IMG/VR virus record: IMGVR_UViG_3300048927_000766
Location: 1 to 40,957 of that record
From: a virus
Strand: one strand, 5' to 3'
DNA: 40,957 bases
Positions 8,730-40,957 of the stretch are shown here, piece after piece (within the stretch, counting starts at the first letter, position 1; every line of letters begins with the position of its first letter). A program made the position numbers and the translations under genes. Under the pieces are notes generated by a model, which did not search any database, was not told where the DNA came from, and worked only from the letters and a program-made list of their open reading frames with translations.

Positions 8730-9224
8730 ATGAGTTTTTTAAAAACAATCCAACTGTTCGTGGCCAACAATCCTGGACTCACGAACAAGGAGATCGCCGC
8801 AGCACTGCCAGAGTACGCCTTGCACAGTGTTCAGCGTGCTGTATGTCGCCTGGTCATGCTTAACCGAGCTGAGCGAAAAGGTGTGCGTCCTAACTTCCGT
8901 TACTACGCAAAAGCACCGACAGGACCTATTGGGCCGATCATCCCACGTACTCGTATCGAAAAAACTGAAGCCATCCCTGAACCAAAACAGGAAACCACAC
9001 CAAACCCGGCAGTCATTGCGATGTTGGACAAGGCTAAACAGTTATCTGACAAGGGGCTTTATTTGCGTGCTGCTACCGTTCTGATGGAGGCATTCAATCG
9101 CTCAAAGAACGAAACCATGCGAACCAAAATTCTCAAGGAGCGTAAGCGCTGCCTGAGTATGGCGCCGAGGGTTAAAACCACCTGCGATGATTGGTGTCTG
9201 GCTGGCCGAGCGAGGAACGTCTGA
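8730..9224 (+). CDS. PerC-like protein with winged-helix N-terminus
   Basis: A 164-aa protein at the position where lambda has P. Residues 1-60 form a winged helix (NNPGLTNKEIAAALPEYALHSVQRAVCRL), with RPNFRYYAK after it. Residues 100-145 (LDKAKQLSDKGLYLRAATVLMEAF, then RCL) match the PerC-family module. Related phage proteins have been described as transcriptional regulators, and a replication-accessory role is conceivable from its location. It starts 2 bases after the initiator stop and overlaps the methyltransferase start by one base (TGATG). Confidence 0.7.
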   Translation: MSFLKTIQLFVANNPGLTNKEIAAALPEYALHSVQRAVCRLVMLNRAERKGVRPNFRYYAKAPTGPIGPIIPRTRIEKTEAIPEPKQETTPNPAVIAMLDKAKQLSDKGLYLRAATVLMEAFNRSKNETMRTKILKERKRCLSMAPRVKTTCDDWCLAGRARNV

Positions 9225-9883
9225 TGAAATACTCTTTGATTTACGCTGACCCAGCCTGGGAATACGGCAACACCGTCAGCAACGGCGCGGCTACTAATCA
9301 CTACGGCACAATGAAGCTGATCGACATGAAGCGTCTTCCGGTCTGGGACCTTGCTGCCGATGATGCTGTTCTGGCTATGTGGTTCACCGGCACGCACACC
9401 CGCGAGGCTATCGAACTGGCTGAAGCATGGGGCTTTAAGGTCCGCACGATGAAGGGCTTCACCTGGGTGAAGCTCAACCAGCTGGCAGAGCAGCACATCA
9501 ACAAAGCTCTTCAGGCTGGTGGAGTAGAGGACTTTTACGACTTCCTCGATCTGCTTAACGAGCAGACCCGCATGAACGGCGGAAACTACACCCGAGCCAA
9601 TACTGAGGACATGCTGATCGCCACCAGAGGAAATGGACTTGAGCGCCAGTGCGCCAATATCAAGCAGGTTATCTACAGCCCGCTCGGCGAGCACAGCCAA
9701 AAACCAGCAGATGCCCGTTTCCGTCTGGAGAAACTGTATGGTGACGTTCCGCGAATCGAACTGTTCAGCCGTTGCGGAGCGCCTGGCTGGGACCACTGGG
9801 GAAATCAATCTGAGTCACCGGCTGTTGAGCTTATCCCGGCAGTAGCCGTTCCAATGATTAAGTCTGAGGAGCGAGCTGCATGA
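9224..9883 (+). CDS. MT-A70 family adenine methyltransferase
   Basis: A 219-aa N6-adenine methyltransferase probably acting on DNA. The catalytic tetrad is DPAW (residues 9-12) in SLIYADPAWEYGN, a D-P-P-W variant. The rest follows the MT-A70 pattern: ATNHYGTM, the DDAVLAMWFTG strand, GFKVRTMKGFTWVKL, and a late GDVPRIELFSRCGAPGWDHWGN. The ATG at 9224 has a GAGGAACG ribosome-binding site and overlaps the preceding stop. No cognate endonuclease lies nearby, so it is likely an orphan enzyme that protects or marks phage DNA. Confidence 0.9.
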   Translation: MKYSLIYADPAWEYGNTVSNGAATNHYGTMKLIDMKRLPVWDLAADDAVLAMWFTGTHTREAIELAEAWGFKVRTMKGFTWVKLNQLAEQHINKALQAGGVEDFYDFLDLLNEQTRMNGGNYTRANTEDMLIATRGNGLERQCANIKQVIYSPLGEHSQKPADARFRLEKLYGDVPRIELFSRCGAPGWDHWGNQSESPAVELIPAVAVPMIKSEERAA

Positions 9884-10170: not shown

Positions 10171-10415
10171 GAAAACTTTCTACAGAGCAGGATAACGCGG
10201 TTCGTGATGTTGCTCGTCAATGCAGCACCGCGCTTAAAAAAGCCATCACTGAAAATCCATCAGTAGGGTGGAATTCAATAGCAACGCCGATCCTGAAGGA
10301 ATATCACGAGAAGGTTAAGCCTATGGGGGTGAGCCTTATGATGTTCTACAGCATCATCGGGCGGCTTAACGGTCGCTTTGGTCGCTACAAGGGCCGCATT
10401 GGGGAGGAATCATGA
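10167..10415 (+). CDS. Small phage protein, unknown
   Basis: An 82-aa basic, mostly helical protein (LSTEQDNAVRDVARQCSTAL..., then FYSIIGRLNGRFGRYKGRIG). It overlaps the genes on both sides by 4 bases, which supports translation. I do not recognise a family or a motif. The Arg/Lys-rich C-terminus would suit nucleic-acid contact, but that is speculative. Confidence 0.6.
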   Translation: MRKLSTEQDNAVRDVARQCSTALKKAITENPSVGWNSIATPILKEYHEKVKPMGVSLMMFYSIIGRLNGRFGRYKGRIGEES

Positions 10416-10864
10416 ACGAGTTAACGCCGCGTCAGAGTGAAGTGCTGGATGCCATAGTACTTTACAGGGACAGAACCGGATTCCCACCCACCATGCTTGA
10501 ACTGGCCGGGTTAATTGGCTGTGCATCACCCAACGCTGCCGCTGAGCATGTGAAGGCGCTGAAGAAAAAAGGCTATATCAACACTGCACGTGGCGCAGCA
10601 CGCGGGATATCACTGATTGAGCACAAGCCAAAGCGGTTTCCTCTCGGCTTAAATGACCAAGTAAAAATCAAACTGTTTGAGCCAGGCATTGAACATCTCA
10701 AACGGCATTATCAGGAATTAAATATTCCCTATGAAGCTCCTAAGGTAGACGCAGATGGTTATTCCACCATGACGCTCTGGTACGTCATGAGTACGTTTGG
10801 TGAAATTTTGTATAACGGTGCTCCTCACGCCTTCGAACTGGCGATTGATCTGGAGGCAAAATGA
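10412..10864 (+). CDS. LexA-type DNA-binding domain protein without a peptidase
   Basis: A 150-aa protein. Residues 1-65 match the LexA N-terminal winged helix (LTPRQSEVLDAIVLYRDRTG, PPTMLELAGLIG, NAAAEHVKALKKKGYI). The remaining 85 residues (GLNDQVKIKLFEPGIEHLKR...) lack the Ala-Gly cleavage site and the Ser/Lys dyad of S24 peptidases. It could compete for LexA-like boxes without being inactivated by RecA. Whether it recognises CTGT-N8-ACAG is unknown. It overlaps both neighbours by 4 bases. Confidence 0.75.
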   Translation: MNELTPRQSEVLDAIVLYRDRTGFPPTMLELAGLIGCASPNAAAEHVKALKKKGYINTARGAARGISLIEHKPKRFPLGLNDQVKIKLFEPGIEHLKRHYQELNIPYEAPKVDADGYSTMTLWYVMSTFGEILYNGAPHAFELAIDLEAK

Positions 10865-11967: not shown

Positions 11968-12953
11968 GAGCCATCCTGACACCTGAAGTTGCGCCAATGT
12001 CCGGGGTGGTACTTTTCCGCCCCGGTAACGAATTGCTATGGCTGTTTCGTCGTGGACGGGTGGTGATTGAAACGCCTTCCGAAGCAATCCAGCACCTGCC
12101 ATCTGGCCTGATTCCTGAAGCGCACCAGCCACTGACAGATGATGTCAGTATGCAGGCGCTTTTCCTGAACGAGAGGGTTATTCAGCGTGCTGGTGGTCTT
12201 AGCAGTCTTGATGCCTGGCTGGAACGTAAATTCGAATGTCAGTGGCCGCACAACGAATGGCACTCAAAGGACTTTACGGTAATGCGTCACGCCCCAGGAA
12301 GCATTCGCCTGTGCTGGGGCTGTGATAATCAGTTGCGTGAACAAACCACTGAAAGACTGGCAGGAATTGCCATGCAGAACCTGGTAAAATGGCTACTCGA
12401 AAGGGTGAATATTATGCTTGGCTTCAGCGCTGACCACACCCTGACGCTGCCGGAGTTCTGCTGGTGGATGGTGCGCAACGATCTGGCTGACCTAATTTCT
12501 GAATCAGTGGCTAACCAGGCACTCAGGATTAAGCCTGAATCTCACAGCTCAGTGATGCGTGAAAGCGACATTGTTCCGTCATTACCGGCGACTGAAATCC
12601 TCCAGGAGAAAGTTAAGAAGATAGTCTCGGTTAAGGTCGATCCTGAATCACCGGAATCTTTCATGCTGAGGCCAAAACGCCGCCGCTGGGAGAACGATAA
12701 GTACACCCGCTGGGTGAAGTCGCAGCAGTGCAGTTGCTGCAATAACCCGGCAGACGACCCCCACCACCTGATAGGCCACGGGCAGGGTGGAATGGGTACG
12801 AAAGCGCACGACCTGTTTGTGATACCGCTGTGCAGAGCGCATCACGACGAGTTGCACGCTGATCCTGTGGCATTTGAAGCGAAGCACGGCGACCAGTTGG
12901 TGCTGTTGTTTCGGTTTTTAGATCGTGCGCTGGAAATCGGCGTACTGGCGTAA
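11964..12953 (+). CDS. DUF968 protein with HNH-like C-terminus
   Basis: A 329-aa protein of the nin-like region. The last 85 residues contain an HNH-type zinc/nuclease pattern: CSCCNNPADDPHHLIGHGQG, then AHDLFVIPLCRAHHDELH. This is typical of DUF968. The N-terminal two thirds (conserved Trp-rich WLERKFECQWPHNEWHSKDF) has no assigned fold. It is probably a structure-specific nuclease, but activity is not established from sequence. It overlaps the Rha gene by 4 bases. Confidence 0.8.
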   Translation: MRAILTPEVAPMSGVVLFRPGNELLWLFRRGRVVIETPSEAIQHLPSGLIPEAHQPLTDDVSMQALFLNERVIQRAGGLSSLDAWLERKFECQWPHNEWHSKDFTVMRHAPGSIRLCWGCDNQLREQTTERLAGIAMQNLVKWLLERVNIMLGFSADHTLTLPEFCWWMVRNDLADLISESVANQALRIKPESHSSVMRESDIVPSLPATEILQEKVKKIVSVKVDPESPESFMLRPKRRRWENDKYTRWVKSQQCSCCNNPADDPHHLIGHGQGGMGTKAHDLFVIPLCRAHHDELHADPVAFEAKHGDQLVLLFRFLDRALEIGVLA

Positions 12954-12966
12954 GTGGAGACGCAAG

Positions 12967-13545
12967 ATGATCAATCCTTCTGAAGTTGGCAAATCCGGCG
13001 AGATGGTTCGCCTTCGCACTCTCGAAAGCATCTGGGTACAGGGCAAGCTCCGCATGTGGGGCCGCTGGTCATATATTGGCGGCGGTTCTGGCGGAAACAT
13101 GTTCAACCAGCTGCTGGCATCGGGGAAAATCACAAAGACCGCTATCAACGATGCGCTTCGCCGCATGAAGAAATCCGGCATCACTAAACCTGAACTGGAA
13201 GCTTACCTGCGTGAAATACTCGACAGCAAAAACAAAAGCGGCCTGGCGTTCTGCTCCGACGAAGAGGGCCTTAAGGTGGATGGTGTTATTGCTTCGGTCT
13301 TGATGAATGATGAATACCGTGGGTTGTATGGCGTAATCGTTGACCGTCACCGGTTGCGTAAGAGCAAACTGCAGATGGCCAACGAGCTGAATGCAAAGCA
13401 CCCTGACTGGACCCTTATCACATGCCGCCGCCGGATCGATACATGGGTAAGTTTGGCAGAATCGATCCTGTACGCTCCACTTTGTGATGCGTTTGGCACA
13501 AATAGCGACAGATTTAAGTTGCAGAGTGAGCAAGAAAGTGCTTAA
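12967..13545 (+). CDS. DUF1133 protein at the Q position (putative late antiterminator)
   Basis: A 192-aa protein with the DUF1133 signature near its N-terminus (GEMVRLRTLESIWVQGKLRMWGRWSYIGGG) and a C-terminal helix-turn-helix-like region (RLRKSKLQMANELNAKHPDWTLITCRRRIDTW). In lambdoid phages with this family, it occupies the slot of Q immediately before the late promoter and lysis genes, as here. A role in late transcription is therefore inferred; the family itself is formally of unknown function. The ATG at 12967 follows GTGGAGACGCAAG; the open frame upstream belongs to DUF968 sequence. Confidence 0.75.
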   Translation: MINPSEVGKSGEMVRLRTLESIWVQGKLRMWGRWSYIGGGSGGNMFNQLLASGKITKTAINDALRRMKKSGITKPELEAYLREILDSKNKSGLAFCSDEEGLKVDGVIASVLMNDEYRGLYGVIVDRHRLRKSKLQMANELNAKHPDWTLITCRRRIDTWVSLAESILYAPLCDAFGTNSDRFKLQSEQESA

Positions 13546-14097: not shown

Positions 14098-14389
14098 TCC
14101 GAGTGCGATGGTGAATGCCCTCATCTGTGGGGTGATCGTCCTTGCTCTGATGTTCTACCAGCGCGGCGGGGCGAGACATCGCCCTCTGATATCGCTGATG
14201 GCTTATTTCACGGTGCTGGTATACGCCAGCGTCCCTTTCCGTTACCTGTTCGGCCTGTACCATGAATCACACTGGTTTGTGGTGCTGGTGAACGTCCTGA
14301 TATGCGCCGTCGTTCTCTGGGCTCGGGGAAACGTAGCACGAATCATTGACGTCCTGAGGCATTCGCATGACCAAAGACGAAATTTTTAA
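14084..14389 (+). CDS. 3-TM holin-like protein
   Basis: A 101-aa protein with three predicted membrane helices (about 9-24, 34-50 and 64-82) and a charged C-terminus, as in the phage 3TM holin family. The ATG at 14084 follows GGTGGAGGGG; the longer frame from 14045 lies inside the first holin gene. It overlaps the endolysin start by 23 bases. The paired membrane proteins may act as holin and antiholin; which is which cannot be told from sequence. Confidence 0.75.
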   Translation: MVTSDPSAMVNALICGVIVLALMFYQRGGARHRPLISLMAYFTVLVYASVPFRYLFGLYHESHWFVVLVNVLICAVVLWARGNVARIIDVLRHSHDQRRNF

Positions 14390-14909
14390 TGCCATCCTCG
14401 GTAAAGAGGGCGGCTACGTTAATCACCCTGACGATAAGGGCGGTCCAACTAACTGGGGGATCACACAAGCGGTAGCTCGCGCCCACGGATTCACCGGGGA
14501 TATGCGAAGCCTGACCCGCCAGCAGGCCCTGGATATCCTGACTGCTGACTACTGGACAGGGCCACGCTTCGACCTTGTTTCTGAGGTATCACCAGCCATC
14601 GCTGCCGAACTCTGCGATACAGGCGTAAACATGGGCCCATCAGTTCAGACCAAATGGTTTCAGCGCTGGCTGAACGTGTTCAACATTCAGGGCACGCTCT
14701 ATCCCGATCTGATTGCTGATGGTTTTATCGGTCCGCGAACTATCAGCGCGTTAAAAAGCTATCTTTCACGGCGCGGAAAAGAGGGTGAGCTGGTTATGCT
14801 TCGGGCCCTGAATTGTAGCCAGGGTCAGCGTTATCTTGAGCTGGCAGAACAGCGCAGCGCGAACGAAACGTTTGTTTATGGCTGGGTGAAGGAGCGGGTG
14901 GTTATATGA
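14367..14909 (+). CDS. Endolysin, GH108 N-acetylmuramidase
   Basis: A 180-aa peptidoglycan hydrolase. The catalytic Glu14 is in ILGKEGGYVNHPDDKGGPTNWGIT, the GH108 signature. Residues 90-175 form the C-terminal peptidoglycan-binding-3 domain (FIGPRTISALKSYL). There is no signal or SAR sequence at the N-terminus, so it depends on the holin for release. It overlaps both neighbours. Confidence 0.93.
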   Translation: MTKDEIFNAILGKEGGYVNHPDDKGGPTNWGITQAVARAHGFTGDMRSLTRQQALDILTADYWTGPRFDLVSEVSPAIAAELCDTGVNMGPSVQTKWFQRWLNVFNIQGTLYPDLIADGFIGPRTISALKSYLSRRGKEGELVMLRALNCSQGQRYLELAEQRSANETFVYGWVKERVVI

Positions 14910-15175: not shown

Positions 15176-15326
15176 GGTAGTGGACACTGCCTGCGATTGG
15201 GTTAGACCCATTTACGGCACCGCTCATGACTGGGATGTTCTGGACCGCCAAACGAAGAAAGACATCCTGGCGCATAACAAAGCGTGGCAGGCGAACTGCC
15301 AGAAAGAAAACAGAGCCTCGCAATAG
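15096..15326 (+). CDS. Rz1: Rz1-like o-spanin lipoprotein
   Basis: A 76-aa protein in a different frame, overlapping Rz by 80 bases. It has a short signal peptide ending in a lipobox-like LIVSC (Cys18), then a mature domain (AQTGPVRVEVVDTACDWVRP...). Nested spanin genes are a hallmark of lambdoid lysis cassettes. Its stop codon lies within the terminator hairpin that follows. Confidence 0.8.
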   Translation: MYSRPLTICLAMMLIVSCAQTGPVRVEVVDTACDWVRPIYGTAHDWDVLDRQTKKDILAHNKAWQANCQKENRASQ

Positions 15327-15337
15327 CGGGGCTTTTT
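15314..15337 (+). terminator. Terminator at the end of the lysis cassette
   Basis: AGCCTCGC-aata-GCGGGGCT (8 bp, one U-G) is followed by TTTTT. It overlaps the end of the o-spanin gene. Confidence 0.8.
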
Positions 15338-15358
15338 AACGCAAAAAAGGTAAAGACG

Positions 15359-15646
15359 ATGGATGAAGAGTATCGTAAAGACCTGCAACTGTGGTTTGGC
15401 CTGTCACACGCTGCTTTCTGCGTGATGCCCCGAGTTTTTATGGAGGCAATGCCAAAGGAATGGCAAGAAAAGATGGCTCAACTGCTTTTTGAATACGACG
15501 ACACAATTAAAACGAACGTCTGTGGGATTCATAGTTGTTTTGTTACTGCCAAAGACAGCAACAACCGCTTTATGAAGATGCCAGAAGATATTCTGAATTA
15601 TCGTCACCCCCAACGTGAGTTTATCGAGTCATTCCTGAACAAGTAG
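15359..15646 (+). CDS. Small phage protein after the lysis cassette, unknown
   Basis: A 95-aa protein (MDEEYRKDLQLWFGLSHAAF..., ending RHPQREFIESFLNK). The ATG at 15359 has an AAAAAGG ribosome-binding site; the frame is open back to 15284 through the terminator. Conserved-looking aromatic residues and a CGIHSCF pair are present, but I recognise no family. It lies alone between the lysis terminator and the accessory stretch. Confidence 0.65.
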   Translation: MDEEYRKDLQLWFGLSHAAFCVMPRVFMEAMPKEWQEKMAQLLFEYDDTIKTNVCGIHSCFVTAKDSNNRFMKMPEDILNYRHPQREFIESFLNK

Positions 15647-15978: not shown

Positions 15979-17436
15979 ATGCAGGTCACTATTGATGGTG
16001 TCCCGTATGCACCCGCCTGCGAAAATTCATCGCGGATCGGGATTGCAATAACGACACACCAGCGCGCTGAAGTTCTGAGGCGAGCGCTAGAACAGCACAT
16101 GAAGCACCTGCCATCCGGTGCGCTGGTGGTGGTTATCGATGACGGTTCAAATCCTGTAACGGTAGTTCCCGGCGGCGTGCAGCTGCTTCGCCACGAAACA
16201 TCACTCGGCATTGTTGCTTCGAAGAACGCTAGCCTGTCAGCCCTGATGGATGCCGGGTGCGAGCATCTTTTTCTGTGGGATGATGATGCCTGGCCTATCG
16301 CCGATAACTGGCATCTTCCGTATATCGAATCACCAGAGCCGCACCTGGCTTATCAGTTTCTCGATCTGGCTGGCCCGCGAAAGATTAACGATATGACCGT
16401 TCTGTACCGGGATGATAAGCATATTGCTTACACCGGGCAGCGTGGCGTGATGTTGTACTACCACCACAGCGCTATAGAAAAGGTTGGCGGGTTCGATCCG
16501 GTGTATGGCCGGGGCATGTATGAGCATCCTGATCTGGCGCTTCGGATTTATAACGCTGGCTTAACGTCCTGGGCGTTTGCTGATGTGGTTGGCTCTGAAA
16601 AGCTGATTCACTCAATGGACGAGTACGAAGAGGGCGCGCGAAGCATACCGAGGCCTGAACGTGAAGCGCTCGATAAAAAGAACGCTGTGATTTACGGGCA
16701 GCGCCGGGATTCAGGATATACAGGCTATGCCGAGTATCGATCTCAGCGCGACGTGGTAATAACAACGCTGCTTACCAGCCAGCCAGACCCACAGCGCGGT
16801 ACGAAAATGGCGGCCGCACCTGACATGCTGGCTAAATGGGCCTCATCACTTCGGAATTGTGGCCGTATCGCGCTGGTGGATGAACTGCAGACGTCACCGG
16901 CAGACGTTGAGCTGTATCGCGTTCCTGACGTGAAGATGAATGTCTACTTCCGGCGCTGGCTGCATATCTGGCAGCACCTGCGCGAGCACCCTGAATACCG
17001 GTTTGTCTGGTGTACCGATGGTACCGATGTTGAAATGCTCCGCGCACCGTGGGAAGAAATGCAGCCCGGCAATGTTTACGTCGGTTCTGAACCGAAGACC
17101 TACGCCGACACCTGGGCAAAGCAGAATCATCCTGAGCGTATCTATCAGGAATTCATTGAAGCACACCGCGGCGATGTGATGCTTAACGCTGGTCTGCTGG
17201 GTGGCACCCGCGCTGATGTAATGGCGTTCGCTCACGGCATCATCCGTCTTTACTACCGGATCGAGAGTTATCGTTTCTGGAAGAAAGAGCAGGCTGGTGC
17301 GGCGGTAGGTGACATGCTGGCGTTCGGAATTGTCGCGCAGTCATTCGCTGACAGGCTGGTCACCGGCCCTCTGGTACACACCGTTTTCAAAACTGATGGT
17401 ATCGGTGGGGAGGCCACATGGTGGAAGCACAAGTGA
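15979..17436 (+). CDS. Two-domain phage glycosyltransferase (GT2-like plus second GT-like domain)
   Basis: A 485-aa protein. Residues 18-225 form a GT-A fold of GT2 type: GIAITTHQRAEVLRRALEQH, VVVIDDGSN (D54, D55), the nucleotide-sugar/metal motif LFLWDDDAW (D101-D103) and GGFDPVYGRGMYEHPDLALR near the end of the domain. Residues about 258-485 look like a second transferase domain, with FVWCTDGTDVEML (D347, D350), NAGLLGGTRADVMAFA and a late AVGDMLAF. There is no membrane segment or signal peptide, so it acts in the cytoplasm. It overlaps the next glycosyltransferase-like gene by 19 bases. Acceptor and donor are unknown. It could modify a virion protein, DNA or a surface precursor. Confidence 0.8.
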   Translation: MQVTIDGVPYAPACENSSRIGIAITTHQRAEVLRRALEQHMKHLPSGALVVVIDDGSNPVTVVPGGVQLLRHETSLGIVASKNASLSALMDAGCEHLFLWDDDAWPIADNWHLPYIESPEPHLAYQFLDLAGPRKINDMTVLYRDDKHIAYTGQRGVMLYYHHSAIEKVGGFDPVYGRGMYEHPDLALRIYNAGLTSWAFADVVGSEKLIHSMDEYEEGARSIPRPEREALDKKNAVIYGQRRDSGYTGYAEYRSQRDVVITTLLTSQPDPQRGTKMAAAPDMLAKWASSLRNCGRIALVDELQTSPADVELYRVPDVKMNVYFRRWLHIWQHLREHPEYRFVWCTDGTDVEMLRAPWEEMQPGNVYVGSEPKTYADTWAKQNHPERIYQEFIEAHRGDVMLNAGLLGGTRADVMAFAHGIIRLYYRIESYRFWKKEQAGAAVGDMLAFGIVAQSFADRLVTGPLVHTVFKTDGIGGEATWWKHK

Positions 17437-18008
17437 AATTCGTTGTTGTTGGTCACCACTCCCGGGCAGAACATGCACAACGTCTTGCTGCGCTGCTGGA
17501 TGCTCATCTGCTTATTGATGACGGTAACCACGGTGCGAACTGGAATCATCGTCGCGCTATCGAATGGGCTGCTGAGCAGCCTTGCCGGGTGGTGGTACTG
17601 GAAGACGACGCGCTGCCTGTGCAGGGGTTCACCGATAAGGTAACTGACTGGCTGGTGCGCTTCCCTGACGACATGCTGAGCTTTTATCTCGGTACCGGCC
17701 GACCGCCGCAGTATCAGAAAGAGATTGCCGGAATGCTGGTGGATGCGGATCGCGTCTGTGGTGACCACATCGTATTAAGCAAGCTGATTCACGGCGTATG
17801 TTATAGCCCTCCTCGGGGAAGTTTGGCGCGCATGCTCAGCACATGGAACAAAACGCTGGCAGCTGATTACGCCGTCGGTGAGGCATTCGGTGGCCGGGTG
17901 ATTTATCCGTGTTACTCGCTGGTGGATCACGCTGACCTCCCGACAGTTGAGCGTCACCCTGACAACGAGCCGAGGACGGAACGCCGCCGCGCATGGAGAC
18001 TGGCATGA
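17418..18008 (+). CDS. Second glycosyltransferase-like protein (LEDD motif)
   Basis: A 196-aa protein with an N-terminal Rossmann-like strand (VKFVVVGHHSRAEHAQRLAALL) and a central VVVLEDDALPV motif (LEDD 61-64). This is preceded by WNHRRAIEWA, the spacing seen in GT25-type transferases. The C-terminus includes YPCYSLVDHADLPTVE. It begins inside the upstream transferase gene and overlaps the HNH start by 4 bases, so the set is co-translated. It probably works with the upstream enzyme, for example adding a further sugar. The GT25 label is tentative. Confidence 0.65.
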   Translation: MVEAQVKFVVVGHHSRAEHAQRLAALLDAHLLIDDGNHGANWNHRRAIEWAAEQPCRVVVLEDDALPVQGFTDKVTDWLVRFPDDMLSFYLGTGRPPQYQKEIAGMLVDADRVCGDHIVLSKLIHGVCYSPPRGSLARMLSTWNKTLAADYAVGEAFGGRVIYPCYSLVDHADLPTVERHPDNEPRTERRRAWRLA

Positions 18009-18346
18009 ACAAAGAGCCCCGCGTATATGGCAGCCGATGGGATAAGGCCCGTCTGCGTTTCCTGCAGCAGCACCCACTATGTGTGATGTGCGAGCAGCAG
18101 GGGCGCATTACCCCAGCAACGGTGGTTGACCATATCGAGCCCCACAAACTCAAAGATGCGCTTAAGTCAGGTAACCCGCTGGCCATATCGAAAGCACAGC
18201 TCCTGTTCTGGAGTAAAGAGAACTGGCAGCCACTGTGTAAAGCGCATCATGACTCAACGAAACAGAGGATGGAGAAGAGCGGCGCGGTAATAGGCTGTGA
18301 TGCCAATGGCTACCCGCTCGATCCTGCGTCTCACTGGAGCACGTAA
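18005..18346 (+). CDS. HNH endonuclease adjacent to cos
   Basis: A 113-aa HNH nuclease. The zinc/catalytic pattern is CVMCEQQGRITPATVVDHIEPHK followed by NWQPLCKAHHDSTKQ. In HK97-type phages an HNH protein encoded next to the terminase genes is needed with TerL for specific cos cleavage, so that role is likely here. The ATG at 18005 has a GGAG site and an ATGA overlap; an ATG at 17993 is four codons earlier. Confidence 0.92.
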   Translation: MNKEPRVYGSRWDKARLRFLQQHPLCVMCEQQGRITPATVVDHIEPHKLKDALKSGNPLAISKAQLLFWSKENWQPLCKAHHDSTKQRMEKSGAVIGCDANGYPLDPASHWST

Positions 18347-22713: not shown

Positions 22714-23871
22714 ATGTCTGAACTCGCTCTCATTCAAAAAGCAATCGAAGAATCCCAGCAGAAAATGACCCAGCTGTTCGATGCGCAGAAAGCTGAAATC
22801 GAAAGCACGGGCCAGGTTTCCAAACAGCTGCAGTCCGACCTGGCAAAAGTACAGGAAGAACTGTCCAAATCCGGTACCCGCCTCTTCGATCTGGAACAGA
22901 AACTGGCTTCCGGTGCTGAAAATCCGGGTGAGAAGAAATCCTTCTCTGAACGTGCTGCTGAAGAGCTCATCAAGTCATGGGACGGTAAACAGGGCACCTT
23001 CGACGCGAAGACGTTTAACAAGTCTCTCGGCAGTGACGCTGATTCTGCTGGCTCACTGATCCAGCCGATGCAGATCCCTGGCATCATCATGCCGGGCCTG
23101 CGCCGTCTGACTATTCGTGACCTGCTGGCTCAGGGCAGAATTTCCAGCAACGCTCTCGAATACGTGCGTGAAGAGGTGTTTACCAATAACGCCGACGTAG
23201 TGGCAGAGAAGGCGCTTAAGCCAGAATCGGATATCACCTTCAGCAAACAGACCGCGAACGTAAAGACCATCGCGCACTGGGTGCAGGCATCACGTCAGGT
23301 GATGGACGATGCGCCAATGCTGCAGTCCTACGTTAACAACCGCCTCATGTACGGTCTGGCACTGAAGGAAGAAGGCCAGCTGCTGAACGGCGACGGCACC
23401 GGGGATAACCTGGAAGGTCTGAACAAAGTGGCTACCGCCTACGACACCTCGCTGAATGCCACCGGCGACACCCGAGCTGACATTATCGCTCACGCCATTT
23501 ATCAGGTGACCGAATCTGAGTTTAGCGCTTCCGGTATCGTCCTGAACCCGCGCGACTGGCACAACATTGCCCTGCTGAAAGACAATGAAGGCCGTTATAT
23601 TTTCGGCGGCCCTCAGGCGTTTACCAGCAACATCATGTGGGGTCTGCCAGTAGTTCCGACTAAGGCACAGGCCGCCGGTACCTTTACGGTGGGCGGTTTC
23701 GATATGGCCTCTCAGGTGTGGGATCGCATGGATGCCACCGTGGAAGTCAGCCGTGAAGACCGCGATAACTTCGTGAAAAACATGCTGACCATCCTGTGCG
23801 AAGAGCGCCTGGCGCTGGCGCACTATCGCCCGACGGCAATCATCAAGGGCACCTTCTCTTCTGGCTCATGA
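22714..23871 (+). CDS. Major capsid protein (HK97 gp5 type, cross-linking)
   Basis: A 385-aa protein, the same length as HK97 gp5. Residues 1-103 are the helical scaffolding delta domain. The cleavage junction FNK/SLGSD falls at 103/104, as in HK97. Lys169 (KALKPES), Asn356 (NFVKNML) and the catalytic Glu363 (LCEERLAL) are all conserved, so mature particles should form covalent Lys-Asn chainmail. Sequence identity to HK97 appears very high, consistent with a recently exchanged head module. Confidence 0.97.
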   Translation: MSELALIQKAIEESQQKMTQLFDAQKAEIESTGQVSKQLQSDLAKVQEELSKSGTRLFDLEQKLASGAENPGEKKSFSERAAEELIKSWDGKQGTFDAKTFNKSLGSDADSAGSLIQPMQIPGIIMPGLRRLTIRDLLAQGRISSNALEYVREEVFTNNADVVAEKALKPESDITFSKQTANVKTIAHWVQASRQVMDDAPMLQSYVNNRLMYGLALKEEGQLLNGDGTGDNLEGLNKVATAYDTSLNATGDTRADIIAHAIYQVTESEFSASGIVLNPRDWHNIALLKDNEGRYIFGGPQAFTSNIMWGLPVVPTKAQAAGTFTVGGFDMASQVWDRMDATVEVSREDRDNFVKNMLTILCEERLALAHYRPTAIIKGTFSSGS

Positions 23872-23903: not shown

Positions 23904-24230
23904 ATGGCGATTGATGTTCTCGATGTAATGAATCTCAGTCTGTTTAAGCAGCAGATTGAGTTTGAGGAAGACGACAGGGACGAGCTGATCACGCTGTACG
24001 CCCAGGCCGCTTTTGACTACTGCATGCGCTGGTGCGATGAACCTGCATGGAAGGTTGCCTCTGATATTCCTGCGGCCGTTAAGGGTGCTGTTCTCCTTGT
24101 CTTTGCTGACATGTTCGAACACCGCACCGCGCAAAGCGAAGTACAGCTTTATGAAAACGCTGCCGCCGAACGCATGATGTTCATTCATCGCAACTGGCGC
24201 GGTAAATCTGAACCTGAGGAGGGCTCCTGA
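23904..24230 (+). CDS. Head-tail adaptor (HK97 gp6 type)
   Basis: A 108-aa helical connector, the size of HK97 gp6 (LDVMNLSLFKQQIEFEEDDR..., AAFDYCMRW). It would form a ring under the portal. It follows the capsid gene after 32 bases and shares one base with the next gene's start. Confidence 0.93.
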   Translation: MAIDVLDVMNLSLFKQQIEFEEDDRDELITLYAQAAFDYCMRWCDEPAWKVASDIPAAVKGAVLLVFADMFEHRTAQSEVQLYENAAAERMMFIHRNWRGKSEPEEGS

Positions 24231-25412: not shown

Positions 25413-25883
25413 ATGACCAGTAAGTATGAAGTCACAAAGGGGATGACCTTTGCCGTCTCCGACGCACCCGTAACCGCTGATGATTTTAATTCACCAACTT
25501 TCCCGGGGGCTGGCATTACCTGGCTGGAAGCGGCCTGTGCAACGAAGGAGATCACCTTCACCGGCGGCCAGAAAGGGGATATCGACGTCACCACGCTTTG
25601 TTCAACCGAACAGGAGCAAACCAATGGCTTGGCTGCCCCGGCAGAAATGAGCATTACCCGTAACTGGGTGGGAGATGAGGCTGCACAGGAGGCACTGCAG
25701 ACCGCCTACGAAAATGACGAACTGCGTGCGCTGCGCGTGGTATTCCCGTCTGGAAACGGTTTCTACGTGCTGGTGGAGGTACGCCAGAGCTCATGGTCTG
25801 CTGCAACCTCTTCCGTTGTTGGCGCTACCTATTCTCTGCGTGTACGCGGCAAACCGAAACGCATCTACGCATCTGGTTCCTGA
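25413..25883 (+). CDS. Major tail (tube) protein
   Basis: A 156-aa beta-rich protein at the tube position between the tail terminator and the tail chaperones. Features fitting a siphovirus tube protein are the N-terminal KYEVTKGMTFAVSD, FTGGQKGDIDVTTLCS and the C-terminal RVRGKPKRIY. Hexameric rings would stack to form the tail. It is flanked by terminators on both sides, which may help set its high expression separately from its neighbours. Confidence 0.85.
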   Translation: MTSKYEVTKGMTFAVSDAPVTADDFNSPTFPGAGITWLEAACATKEITFTGGQKGDIDVTTLCSTEQEQTNGLAAPAEMSITRNWVGDEAAQEALQTAYENDELRALRVVFPSGNGFYVLVEVRQSSWSAATSSVVGATYSLRVRGKPKRIYASGS

Positions 25884-37452: not shown

Positions 37453-38685
37453 ATGTCGGCAGGCACCATCACCCTGACAAACGGGTCCGCTATTGTTGGC
37501 GGTTCCGGAACCTCATTCGCAGCAGAACTCGCCGCAGGTGATTTTATTGTCTCTACTGTGGGCGGCGTGACGTATACATTGCCCGTAAAATCGGTAGAGA
37601 GTAATGCGCAACTTACGCTGGTCAGCAACTTTACCGGGCCAACGCAATCGGGCGCAGCCTGGTCAGCTGTCCCCCGCGTGGCGCTGAACATGGTAACTGC
37701 TGCACTGGTGGCGCAAAGTGCTGAAGCGCTGCGAGGACTGAATTACGACAAACAGAACTGGCAAAGCATTTTTTCCGGAACCGGAAATGTAACGGTAACT
37801 CTGCCGGATGGAACGACATGGACTGGCCCCGCCTGGAATAGCATTACCACATCGCTATCAGGCAAGGCGGAAAAAGGTGCAAACAGCGACATTACATCTC
37901 TAAGCGGACTCACTACAGCGCTATCTGTAGCACAGGGCGGCACAGGTTCTAAAAACGCAACAGGCGCTCGCACAAACCTCGGTTTAGGAAACTGCGCCAC
38001 CAGGGACGTTGGAATAGGTGCGGGAACGGTCGCCGCGGGTGATGATTCGCGGCTCGGCACAGTGAACGGGAAGAGCGGGGGAACGCTGACAACACCATCA
38101 CTTTTTACATCGGCATATTCGACTAACGCAGGCAATAAAGTAGGAATGCAGTCATTTGACACTAGCACTATTGGAGGTGTTATTGGCAGGACTTCATTCC
38201 AGTATTTTAACGATGCCGGGTATATCGGGGCAAGACGTGGTGGCAGCACGAACATCCAGGACATGGCTATAGGAATAGATAAAGCCAACGGTACATGGGT
38301 TACATGGATTTTTTCTGAGGGCGGTAACGCCACAGCCAGCAATGGTTCATGGATAAATAATTCCGATAAGCATATCAAAACGAATATTAAGCGAGTTGAA
38401 AACCCTCTCGATAAGATGCGTATGGTACGTGGGTGCACATGGGATCGACTGGACAACGCTCCTCCGGGTCAGGGTTTTATCGCGCAGGAGTTGATGGAGG
38501 TAATGCCGACTGCAGTTTTTGAAGGCGGGGCTACTGAGCTTATGGATGGCACAATAGTAGAGAAAACATTAGCAGTCGATGTTGCTGGTGCGGCCGCAGC
38601 GCTTCACCATGAGGCGATTCTGGCTTTAATGGATCAAGTTGCTGATTTAAAGAAAAAACTCGATGCGTTTCAGTCTGGAAGCTGA
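37453..38685 (+). CDS. Tail fibre with C-terminal S74 intramolecular chaperone
   Basis: A 410-aa protein. Residues 1-85 resemble the N-terminus of Enterobacter/Salmonella side-tail fibres (SAGTITLTNGSAIVGGSGTS), followed by a repetitive shaft with LSVAQGGTGSKNATGARTNL. From about 300 it carries a peptidase S74 domain (NNSDKHIKTNIKRVENPL, Ser304 and Lys309, then QGFIAQELMEVMPTAV), which trimerises the fibre and cleaves itself off. It ends in a coiled coil (ALMDQVADLKKKLDAF). Confidence 0.88.
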   Translation: MSAGTITLTNGSAIVGGSGTSFAAELAAGDFIVSTVGGVTYTLPVKSVESNAQLTLVSNFTGPTQSGAAWSAVPRVALNMVTAALVAQSAEALRGLNYDKQNWQSIFSGTGNVTVTLPDGTTWTGPAWNSITTSLSGKAEKGANSDITSLSGLTTALSVAQGGTGSKNATGARTNLGLGNCATRDVGIGAGTVAAGDDSRLGTVNGKSGGTLTTPSLFTSAYSTNAGNKVGMQSFDTSTIGGVIGRTSFQYFNDAGYIGARRGGSTNIQDMAIGIDKANGTWVTWIFSEGGNATASNGSWINNSDKHIKTNIKRVENPLDKMRMVRGCTWDRLDNAPPGQGFIAQELMEVMPTAVFEGGATELMDGTIVEKTLAVDVAGAAAALHHEAILALMDQVADLKKKLDAFQSGS

Positions 38686-39913: not shown

Positions 39914-39944
39914 CGCTAACTGGTTTATTATTAATCAGTTAGCG
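39914..39944 (-). repeat. Inverted repeat at the yejM stop
   Basis: CGCTAACTG (39914-39922) and CAGTTAGCG (39936-39944) form a perfect 9-bp stem around an A+T-rich loop, including the end of yejM. There is no T-tract. It may be a processing or stability hairpin between yejM and the tRNA. Confidence 0.5.
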
Positions 39945-40957
39945 ATGAAGCGCTTCTCATCCGTCAGGACCTGAAGCAGCAGGCTCAGCTGCGGTTTCTG
40001 ATCTTTCAGCCGTTCGCCCTGCAGATTATACGTCTGATAATTCCCGTTGCTGTTCAGCACCAGCGTCAGCTTCGGCGTGGTGACTACCAGCGTATTATTC
40101 CCCGCCGCCGTCACCCAGCTGTGGCGGCGCGCGGCGCTGAAGAGATCCTGCCCCTGCGAATATTCGTTTGCTGGCGTGCTGACGTGCAGCAGGCGTTGCA
40201 TCAGGGTGGTCATCACATCTTTATGCTCGGTGAGCATATTGATGCGCTGCGCCGGGGTGCCAGGCCAGTGGATCACCAGCGGAACCTGCAGATTCGGGCG
40301 AGACCAGCTCATACTCTTCGTCTCGTCACCTAGCGGGATGCCATGGCCCGCGGTCACGATCACCACGGTGTTGTCCAGCTTGCCCGACTCGCGAAGCGCG
40401 TCAAGCACGCGGCCTATCTGCGCATCAACATCGCCAGCCGCGCGGCCGTAGCGGCGCGCAAAGTCACTCTTATTGCTGTTGGCAAGCGTTGTGCCGTTAA
40501 AGGCAACCCATGAGAACCAGCGGTTATCTTCCTGGGCGTAGCGCTGCAGCCAGTTTATCCACTGGCCGGCGGTCTGCGCGTCGGACTGATTTTGCGCCGT
40601 CGGCAGTGAGAAATCGGACAGCAGCGCCTGACGGTAAAGCGGGCTGTTAAAGCCATCGGAGGAGAACAACCCTAACTGATAGCCTTGCTGATTCAGCCCG
40701 GTGATCAGCGCCGCAGGCGTGCGGGTAGACAGTACGCCGTCCATGTAGCCAGCTGAAATGCCATAGAAGAGGCCAAAGATGCCCGCATCGGCGGTGTTAC
40801 CGGAGCTCATATGCTGAGTAAACGAGACGTTCTGACTCGCGAAAGCGGCCAGCGCCGGCATCTGCTTCTCGAAACGGGAATAGTTCAGGCCATCGACGGT
40901 GATCAGCAGGACGTTTTGCCCGCGCCCCATATCGCGGTAGTTCAGGTCGCTCAGAGG
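39935..40957 (-). CDS. yejM: YejM/PbgA/LapC, C-terminal part (host gene, 5' end outside the window)
   Basis: The host inner-membrane protein that senses LPS and controls LpxC turnover through LapB. Only the periplasmic sulfatase-fold domain is present (340 codons): LLITVDGLNYSRFEKQMPAL, FGLFYGISAGYMDGVLSTRT, VPLVIHWPGTPAQRINMLTE, ending LTDEKRFIAN. The frame is open to the window edge, so the N-terminal membrane domain lies beyond 40957. It is very similar to E. coli YejM. The gene is undisturbed by the prophage. Confidence 0.95.
   Translation of the reverse strand, partial: PLSDLNYRDMGRGQNVLLITVDGLNYSRFEKQMPALAAFASQNVSFTQHMSSGNTADAGIFGLFYGISAGYMDGVLSTRTPAALITGLNQQGYQLGLFSSDGFNSPLYRQALLSDFSLPTAQNQSDAQTAGQWINWLQRYAQEDNRWFSWVAFNGTTLANSNKSDFARRYGRAAGDVDAQIGRVLDALRESGKLDNTVVIVTAGHGIPLGDETKSMSWSRPNLQVPLVIHWPGTPAQRINMLTEHKDVMTTLMQRLLHVSTPANEYSQGQDLFSAARRHSWVTAAGNNTLVVTTPKLTLVLNSNGNYQTYNLQGERLKDQKPQLSLLLQVLTDEKRFIAN

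Follow-up and report, generated by a model that had tools for sequence, protein, structure and literature searches.

Two overlapping genes of a lambda-type temperate phage, which we call GT1 and GT2, probably form a virion-glycosylation cassette in which GT2 initiates on a C-terminal Ser tag and GT1 extends the glycan; we put the probability of this reading at about 80%. The window, that is, the whole stretch of 40,957 nucleotides that was analyzed, also encodes an integrase, an S24-type repressor, and a CII-like protein. Support for the proposed cassette comes from homology, predicted fold, and gene context, from the conservation of catalytic residues, and from an association between the tag and the GT genes. 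From this evidence we infer the reaction in the window phage, its sugars, its acceptor residue and atom, the order in which the enzymes act, and the benefit.

The gene pair, its predicted folds, and its neighbors

GT1 (15979..17436, + strand) encodes 485 amino acids and GT2 (17418..18008, + strand) encodes 196; an ORF check of the window gives an overlap of 19 nt. The original prediction placed three glycosyltransferase-like domains in these two genes, all of them cytoplasmic, and we agree on both points. Each motif that it named is found where it was claimed: DDD at residues 101-103 and TDGTD at 346-350 of GT1, and LEDD at 61-64 of GT2. The key acidic residues do not vary; D101, D103, D347, T349, and D350 are invariant in an alignment of 26 GT1 homologues, as are E62 and D64 among 31 homologues of GT2. 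PHROGs assigns GT1 to the glycosyltransferase family phrog_1579 (E 4e-249) and GT2 to the glucosyltransferase family phrog_854 (E 2e-72), the family of Che8 gp110. Pfam picks up only the first domain of GT1 (PF00535, E 8e-4, under the Pfam cut-off), and a PDB sequence search with GT1 and GT2 profiles gave nothing useful.

We searched AlphaFold2 models of both proteins with Foldseek. The GT2 model has a GT-A fold (mean pLDDT 92), and its best PDB matches are mostly glycosyltransferases, many with protein acceptors, including the protein O-glycosyltransferases COLGALT1, ppGalNAc-T2, and POMGNT1. The GT-A fold predicted for GT2 is shared by the eukaryotic and viral protein O-glycosyltransferases COLGALT1, ppGalNAc-T2, and Mimivirus R655, but their sequence similarity to GT2 is undetectable and the acceptors differ. 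The model of GT1 carries less confidence (pLDDT 75) and contains two successive GT-A-like domains, at about residues 19-245 and 257-465. The bifunctional two-domain synthases PmHS2 and K4CP match it best, and after them come many single-domain matches to GT6 alpha-1,3-galactosyltransferases. Although the polysaccharide synthases PmHS2 and K4 chondroitin polymerase likewise carry two successive GT-A domains per chain, they are only ~10% identical to GT1, whose second domain is nearer to GT6 enzymes and whose context does not suggest polymer synthesis. Structure prediction thus bears out the expected fold for the second gene and for both domains of GT1; together, the motifs, PHROGs assignments, and models support three GT domains in two genes.

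The GT pair is a real feature, far beyond chance: hundreds of phages have full-length homologues. Homologues of GT1 occur in 583 phage records and those of GT2 in 668, mostly from Mycobacterium phages and also from phages of Escherichia, Klebsiella, Serratia, Cronobacter, Gordonia, Aeromonas, and Salmonella. HK542 and ECP1, both phages of E. coli K-12, carry the two GTs together. Across its full length GT1 shares 45% identity with MooMoo gp94, and it shares 54% with gp237 of the Klebsiella jumbo phage FBKp24. GT2 is 34% identical to Che8 gp110 (E 1e-23), which itself matches phrog_854. Divergent GT2 loci are found in Rhizobiales, Luteimonas, Brucella, an actinomycete, and Mycolicibacterium.

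By position, the pair lies after a Q-like antiterminator (12925-13545) and the lysis genes, among them a GH108 endolysin (14367-14909), and before the terminase genes, all on one strand. It is followed by an HNH endonuclease gene (17993..18346, + strand), TerS (18736), TerL (19228), HK97-type head genes, and tail genes. A 120-aa ORF before GT1 (15284-15646) matches the C-terminal half of phrog_3527, a family of unknown function, and is possibly truncated. The record closes with a gene that has a sulfatase/phosphodiesterase domain (39935-40930, - strand); it could be a moron or belong to flanking host DNA.

The original prediction took the linkage to HNH, cos, and terminase genes as a sign that packaged DNA or a virion protein is modified during assembly. 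The linkage does not point to a packaging function: the GT genes of ENT47670, GodonK, Mareelih, and Catdawg sit amid head or tail genes, and the linkage is a placement at the cos end that HK97-like and cluster F phages share. We treat the HNH gene, which follows the pair at this end, as context outside the modification unit. At their genome ends mEp390, AsXd-1, MooMoo, and, with no gene between the GTs, HK542 also show the order GT1-x-GT2-HNH. In several phages, including mEp390 (locus L002, 6499-7011) and AsXd-1 (locus L005, 6518-7099), the intervening gene is an extra HNH-type gene; MooMoo and some cluster F phages have a kinase-like gene there.

A C-terminal Gly-Ser tag on virion proteins

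The closest known systems are those of mycobacteriophages. Che8 gp110 and Corndog gp38 are reported to be essential for capsid glycosylation (PMC12363180, citing Freeman et al, 2023), and on capsid and tail-tube subunits the glycans are reported to sit at the C-terminus (PMC12619734, also citing Freeman et al, 2023). The Corndog GTs had earlier been proposed as capsid modifiers and were absent from virions by proteomics (PMC4351075). As in the window, Che8 (gp108-gp110) and Corndog (gp36-gp38) have several adjacent GT genes, placed either close to the cos end or inside the structural operon. Che8 resembles the window further in its following HNH gene and in the -GS ends of its capsid and tail-tube proteins; in Catdawg, a relative of Corndog, both proteins end in Ser. 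Of a Che8 gp110-type system, the window has the gp110 homologue and a further GT gene beside it. The partner enzymes differ, however: in Che8, gp110 is preceded by other GTs, gp108 and gp109, which belong to a different family from the two-domain GT1. The window also differs in coming from an enterobacterial HK97-like phage, in having its adaptor and fiber tagged as well, and in that its glycosylation is a prediction. MooMoo gp94-gp96 is closer in gene content, with GT1 at 45% and GT2 at 35% identity in the same order at the genome end, but its GTs are separated by the kinase-like gene and their function is putative.

In the window, three virion proteins are predicted acceptors by their C-termini: the HK97-type major capsid protein (385 aa, 22714..23871, + strand; ...FSSGS), the head-tail adaptor Ad1 (108 aa, 23904..24230, + strand; ...PEEGS), and the major tail (tube) protein (156 aa, 25413..25883, + strand; ...YASGS). 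The tail fiber (410 aa, 37453..38685, + strand; ...FQSGS) is a possible acceptor with a weaker GT association. The corresponding ends are ...FNKTGS (capsid) and ...YSDGS (tail tube) in Che8 and ...AASGS and ...AEDGS in MooMoo, so that only the last two residues are common to all. We also considered a Ser/Thr-rich C-terminal extension of the capsid as acceptor and rejected it; the window capsid has none and matches HK97 in length and end. In the literature we covered, which includes papers citing Freeman et al, 2023, we found no description of a C-terminal Gly-Ser tag.

Our survey covered 278 loci, which encode 4703 distinct proteins. The -GS end clusters in particular families, namely the capsid (88/93), the tail protein (MTP, 58/67), and the adaptor (48/50), and two further capsid and tail families show a -TS variant. 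None of the GT1, GT2, TerL, TMP, or HNH family members at the first 166 loci ends in -GS. PHROGs identifies most -GS proteins of the divergent GT2 loci as capsid, tail, or adaptor components, and in GodonK four consecutive proteins of the virion region carry the tag. The capsid ends in Ser in all 17 GT2 lineages (13 GS, 2 TS, 1 AS, and 1 PS), which are not fully independent because some share a capsid family. Five of these lineages were checked after the rule had been formed, and in those five phages all 10 capsid and tail proteins end in Ser, 7 of them in GS: Catdawg (VGS and GDS), Fryberger (AGS and PAS), Poise (QGS and GGS), Neville (DPS and AGS), and Mareelih (VGS, with SGS on gp87, a tail protein by position). 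Conversely, where sampled cluster F records have the Che8 capsid, GT2 is present in 46/46. Only in the GT cohort does the final Ser vary least among the last eight residues; its entropy in the cohort families is 0.15, 0.0, 0.37, and 0.0 bit, compared with 1.99 in GT-free capsids of the KPP type.

GT2 is the constant enzyme: Che8 and GodonK lack a GT1 of the phrog_1579 type and keep both GT2 and the tag, which suggests that GT2 starts the glycan. In the mechanism we propose, the GT pair would be expressed from the late operon, together with the head and tail proteins. GT2 would recognize the free C-terminal ...[Gly/Thr]-Ser of the capsid, tail tube, adaptor, and perhaps tail fiber in the cytoplasm and place the first sugar on the hydroxyl of the terminal Ser, and the two-domain GT1 would add further sugars. 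In other phages different GTs may replace GT1 and yield different glycans. The outcome would be a short O-glycan at the C-termini of the most abundant virion surface proteins.

Exceptions to the rule and alternative roles

The most serious alternative is that the enzymes glycosylate virion proteins at other Ser or Thr residues and that the C-terminal GS is a structural or inherited HK97-type feature. Two observations speak for it. GT-free HK97, HK022, and their relatives keep the SSGS end of the capsid and the EEGS end of the adaptor, as expected after recent loss of the GTs from a mosaic genome, or else in keeping with another role of the tag. Moreover, -GS is found in some GT-free lineages: in 5/27 (19%) of GT2-free phrog_617 capsids, in 18/74 KPP-type tail proteins, and in 8/27 (30%) of GT2-free tail fibers from records of at least 36 kb. 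The background rates of 17-19% used in the lineage calculation are rough figures from a single GT-free capsid group. Some GT-free records are fragments, where the absence of GT2 is less certain; record lengths served to limit this effect. Since the end also occurs in GT2-free capsids, tails, and fibers, the rule linking tag and GT is a strong statistical link and not proof of the acceptor.

GT2 is absent from 50/50 records of the KPP5665-2 clade, a sister clade, whose capsids have a GS end at only 6/80 loci; among their final eight residues it is the last that varies most. GT-free HK446 and mEpX1 have ...FSAD, an end unseen among GT carriers, and 5/6 capsid and tail proteins of GT-free TM4, Giles, and lambda have no terminal Ser, the V protein of lambda ending in AS. 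Given that the motif recurs on different protein families within one genome (GodonK, Mareelih), spans the 17 GT2 lineages, and is most constant at its final Ser only in the GT cohort, and that mycobacteriophage glycans are placed at C-termini (PMC12619734), we consider a purely structural or inherited GS end unlikely.

The tail fiber was rejected as a strict case: -GS ends are significantly enriched with GT2 in records of at least 36 kb (10/14 versus 8/27 in GT2-free records, p = 0.019) and across all sizes (13/18 versus 16/57, p = 0.0017), kinship being ignored in both tests, but the association is loose. In some GT carriers the tail protein ends in ...TVN and so lacks the tag. The Kp24 capsid, which ends in PAS, was likewise dropped as a strict -GS case; among the large Kp24 virion proteins only gp048 carries -GS. 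In FBKp24, gp048 (locus L613, 34865-35407) is a phrog_2935 virion protein, and the small gp102 (locus L614, 27074-27295) and gp111 (10258-10452), beside tail-fiber genes, also end in -GS. Myrna is reported to be glycosylated, with its GT said to belong to another cluster (PMC12363180); the Myrna virion genes that we read showed no -GS.

Two loci have damaged GT genes. Locus L132 (G014) is a decaying GT cassette; its GT2 is interrupted by a TGA stop and GT1 is gone, and its capsid and tail protein still end in -GS. At locus L455 (G133) a GT1 remnant (residues 1-44) with a stop is left, GT2 is missing, and the tail fiber ends in ...RQGN instead of ...QSGS.

Prophage GTs commonly modify the host surface, as gtrABC does, and on this ground the pair could act on O-antigen or another polysaccharide in serotype conversion or superinfection exclusion. 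We find this highly improbable. In gtrABC serotype conversion the GT lies near int, with the GtrA flippase and GtrB next to it; the window pair has lysis, HNH, and terminase genes as neighbors and adjoins neither a membrane flippase nor a gtr gene. The probable late-operon position and the pairing and tag association, kept across Gram-negative and actinobacterial hosts, also argue against it. The original prediction was right to set the unit apart from gtrABC, with neither GtrA nor the bactoprenol GT GtrB beside the pair.

That prediction left open whether packaged DNA or a virion protein is modified; the homology to Che8 gp110 and the C-terminal tag favor the virion protein. Glycosylation of phage DNA against restriction can be set aside almost entirely, even though phage GTs often modify DNA and these adjoin cos and terminase genes, given that we found no base hydroxylase or hydroxymethylase among the window proteins searched, that the folds are GT-A with matches to enzymes for protein and sugar acceptors, that homologous Che8 gp110 acts on a capsid protein (PMC12363180), and that in several phages the genes lie amid head and tail genes rather than beside cos. 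The argument against a T4-type scheme, which pairs a base hydroxymethylase with a GT-B DNA glucosyltransferase, stands as well; the window proteins searched include no hydroxylase, and the predicted folds of the pair are GT-A. The sole nucleic-acid-modifying candidate seen is an MT-A70 family (adenine-N6 type) methyltransferase in the early region (9191-9883).

Implications for tailed phages

Virion glycosylation has so far been shown only in a few mycobacteriophages, and we know of no glycan observed to date in any enterobacterial phage. Our reading extends virion glycosylation to HK97-like enterobacterial phages and couples it to a C-terminal Gly-Ser tag. On this evidence such glycosylation is predicted for widespread temperate phages of E. 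coli, Cronobacter, Enterobacter, Aeromonas, and Salmonella, and the prediction extends to Klebsiella jumbo phages and to prophages of Rhizobiales, Brucella, and Luteimonas. The reported benefit in mycobacteriophages is reduced antibody recognition (PMC12363180); in an enterobacterial phage other benefits, such as stability or adsorption, are equally possible.

We favor, with somewhat more reserve than for the cassette itself, a general C-terminal glycosylation tag in tailed phages, a terminal [Gly/Thr]-Ser read by gp110-family enzymes, on which unrelated virion proteins have converged in phages of enterobacteria, alphaproteobacteria, Xanthomonadales, and actinobacteria. If so, one short terminal code would decide which virion parts receive a glycan. 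The analysis names GT2 as the likely initiating enzyme, with a one-residue acceptor rule, and this rule concerns virions close to HK97, a standard model of capsid assembly; HK97 itself, which has the capsid and adaptor tag and no GTs, offers a natural comparison. If a small soluble GT-A enzyme does read so short a C-terminal tag, enzyme and tag would also make a simple tool for protein glycosylation.
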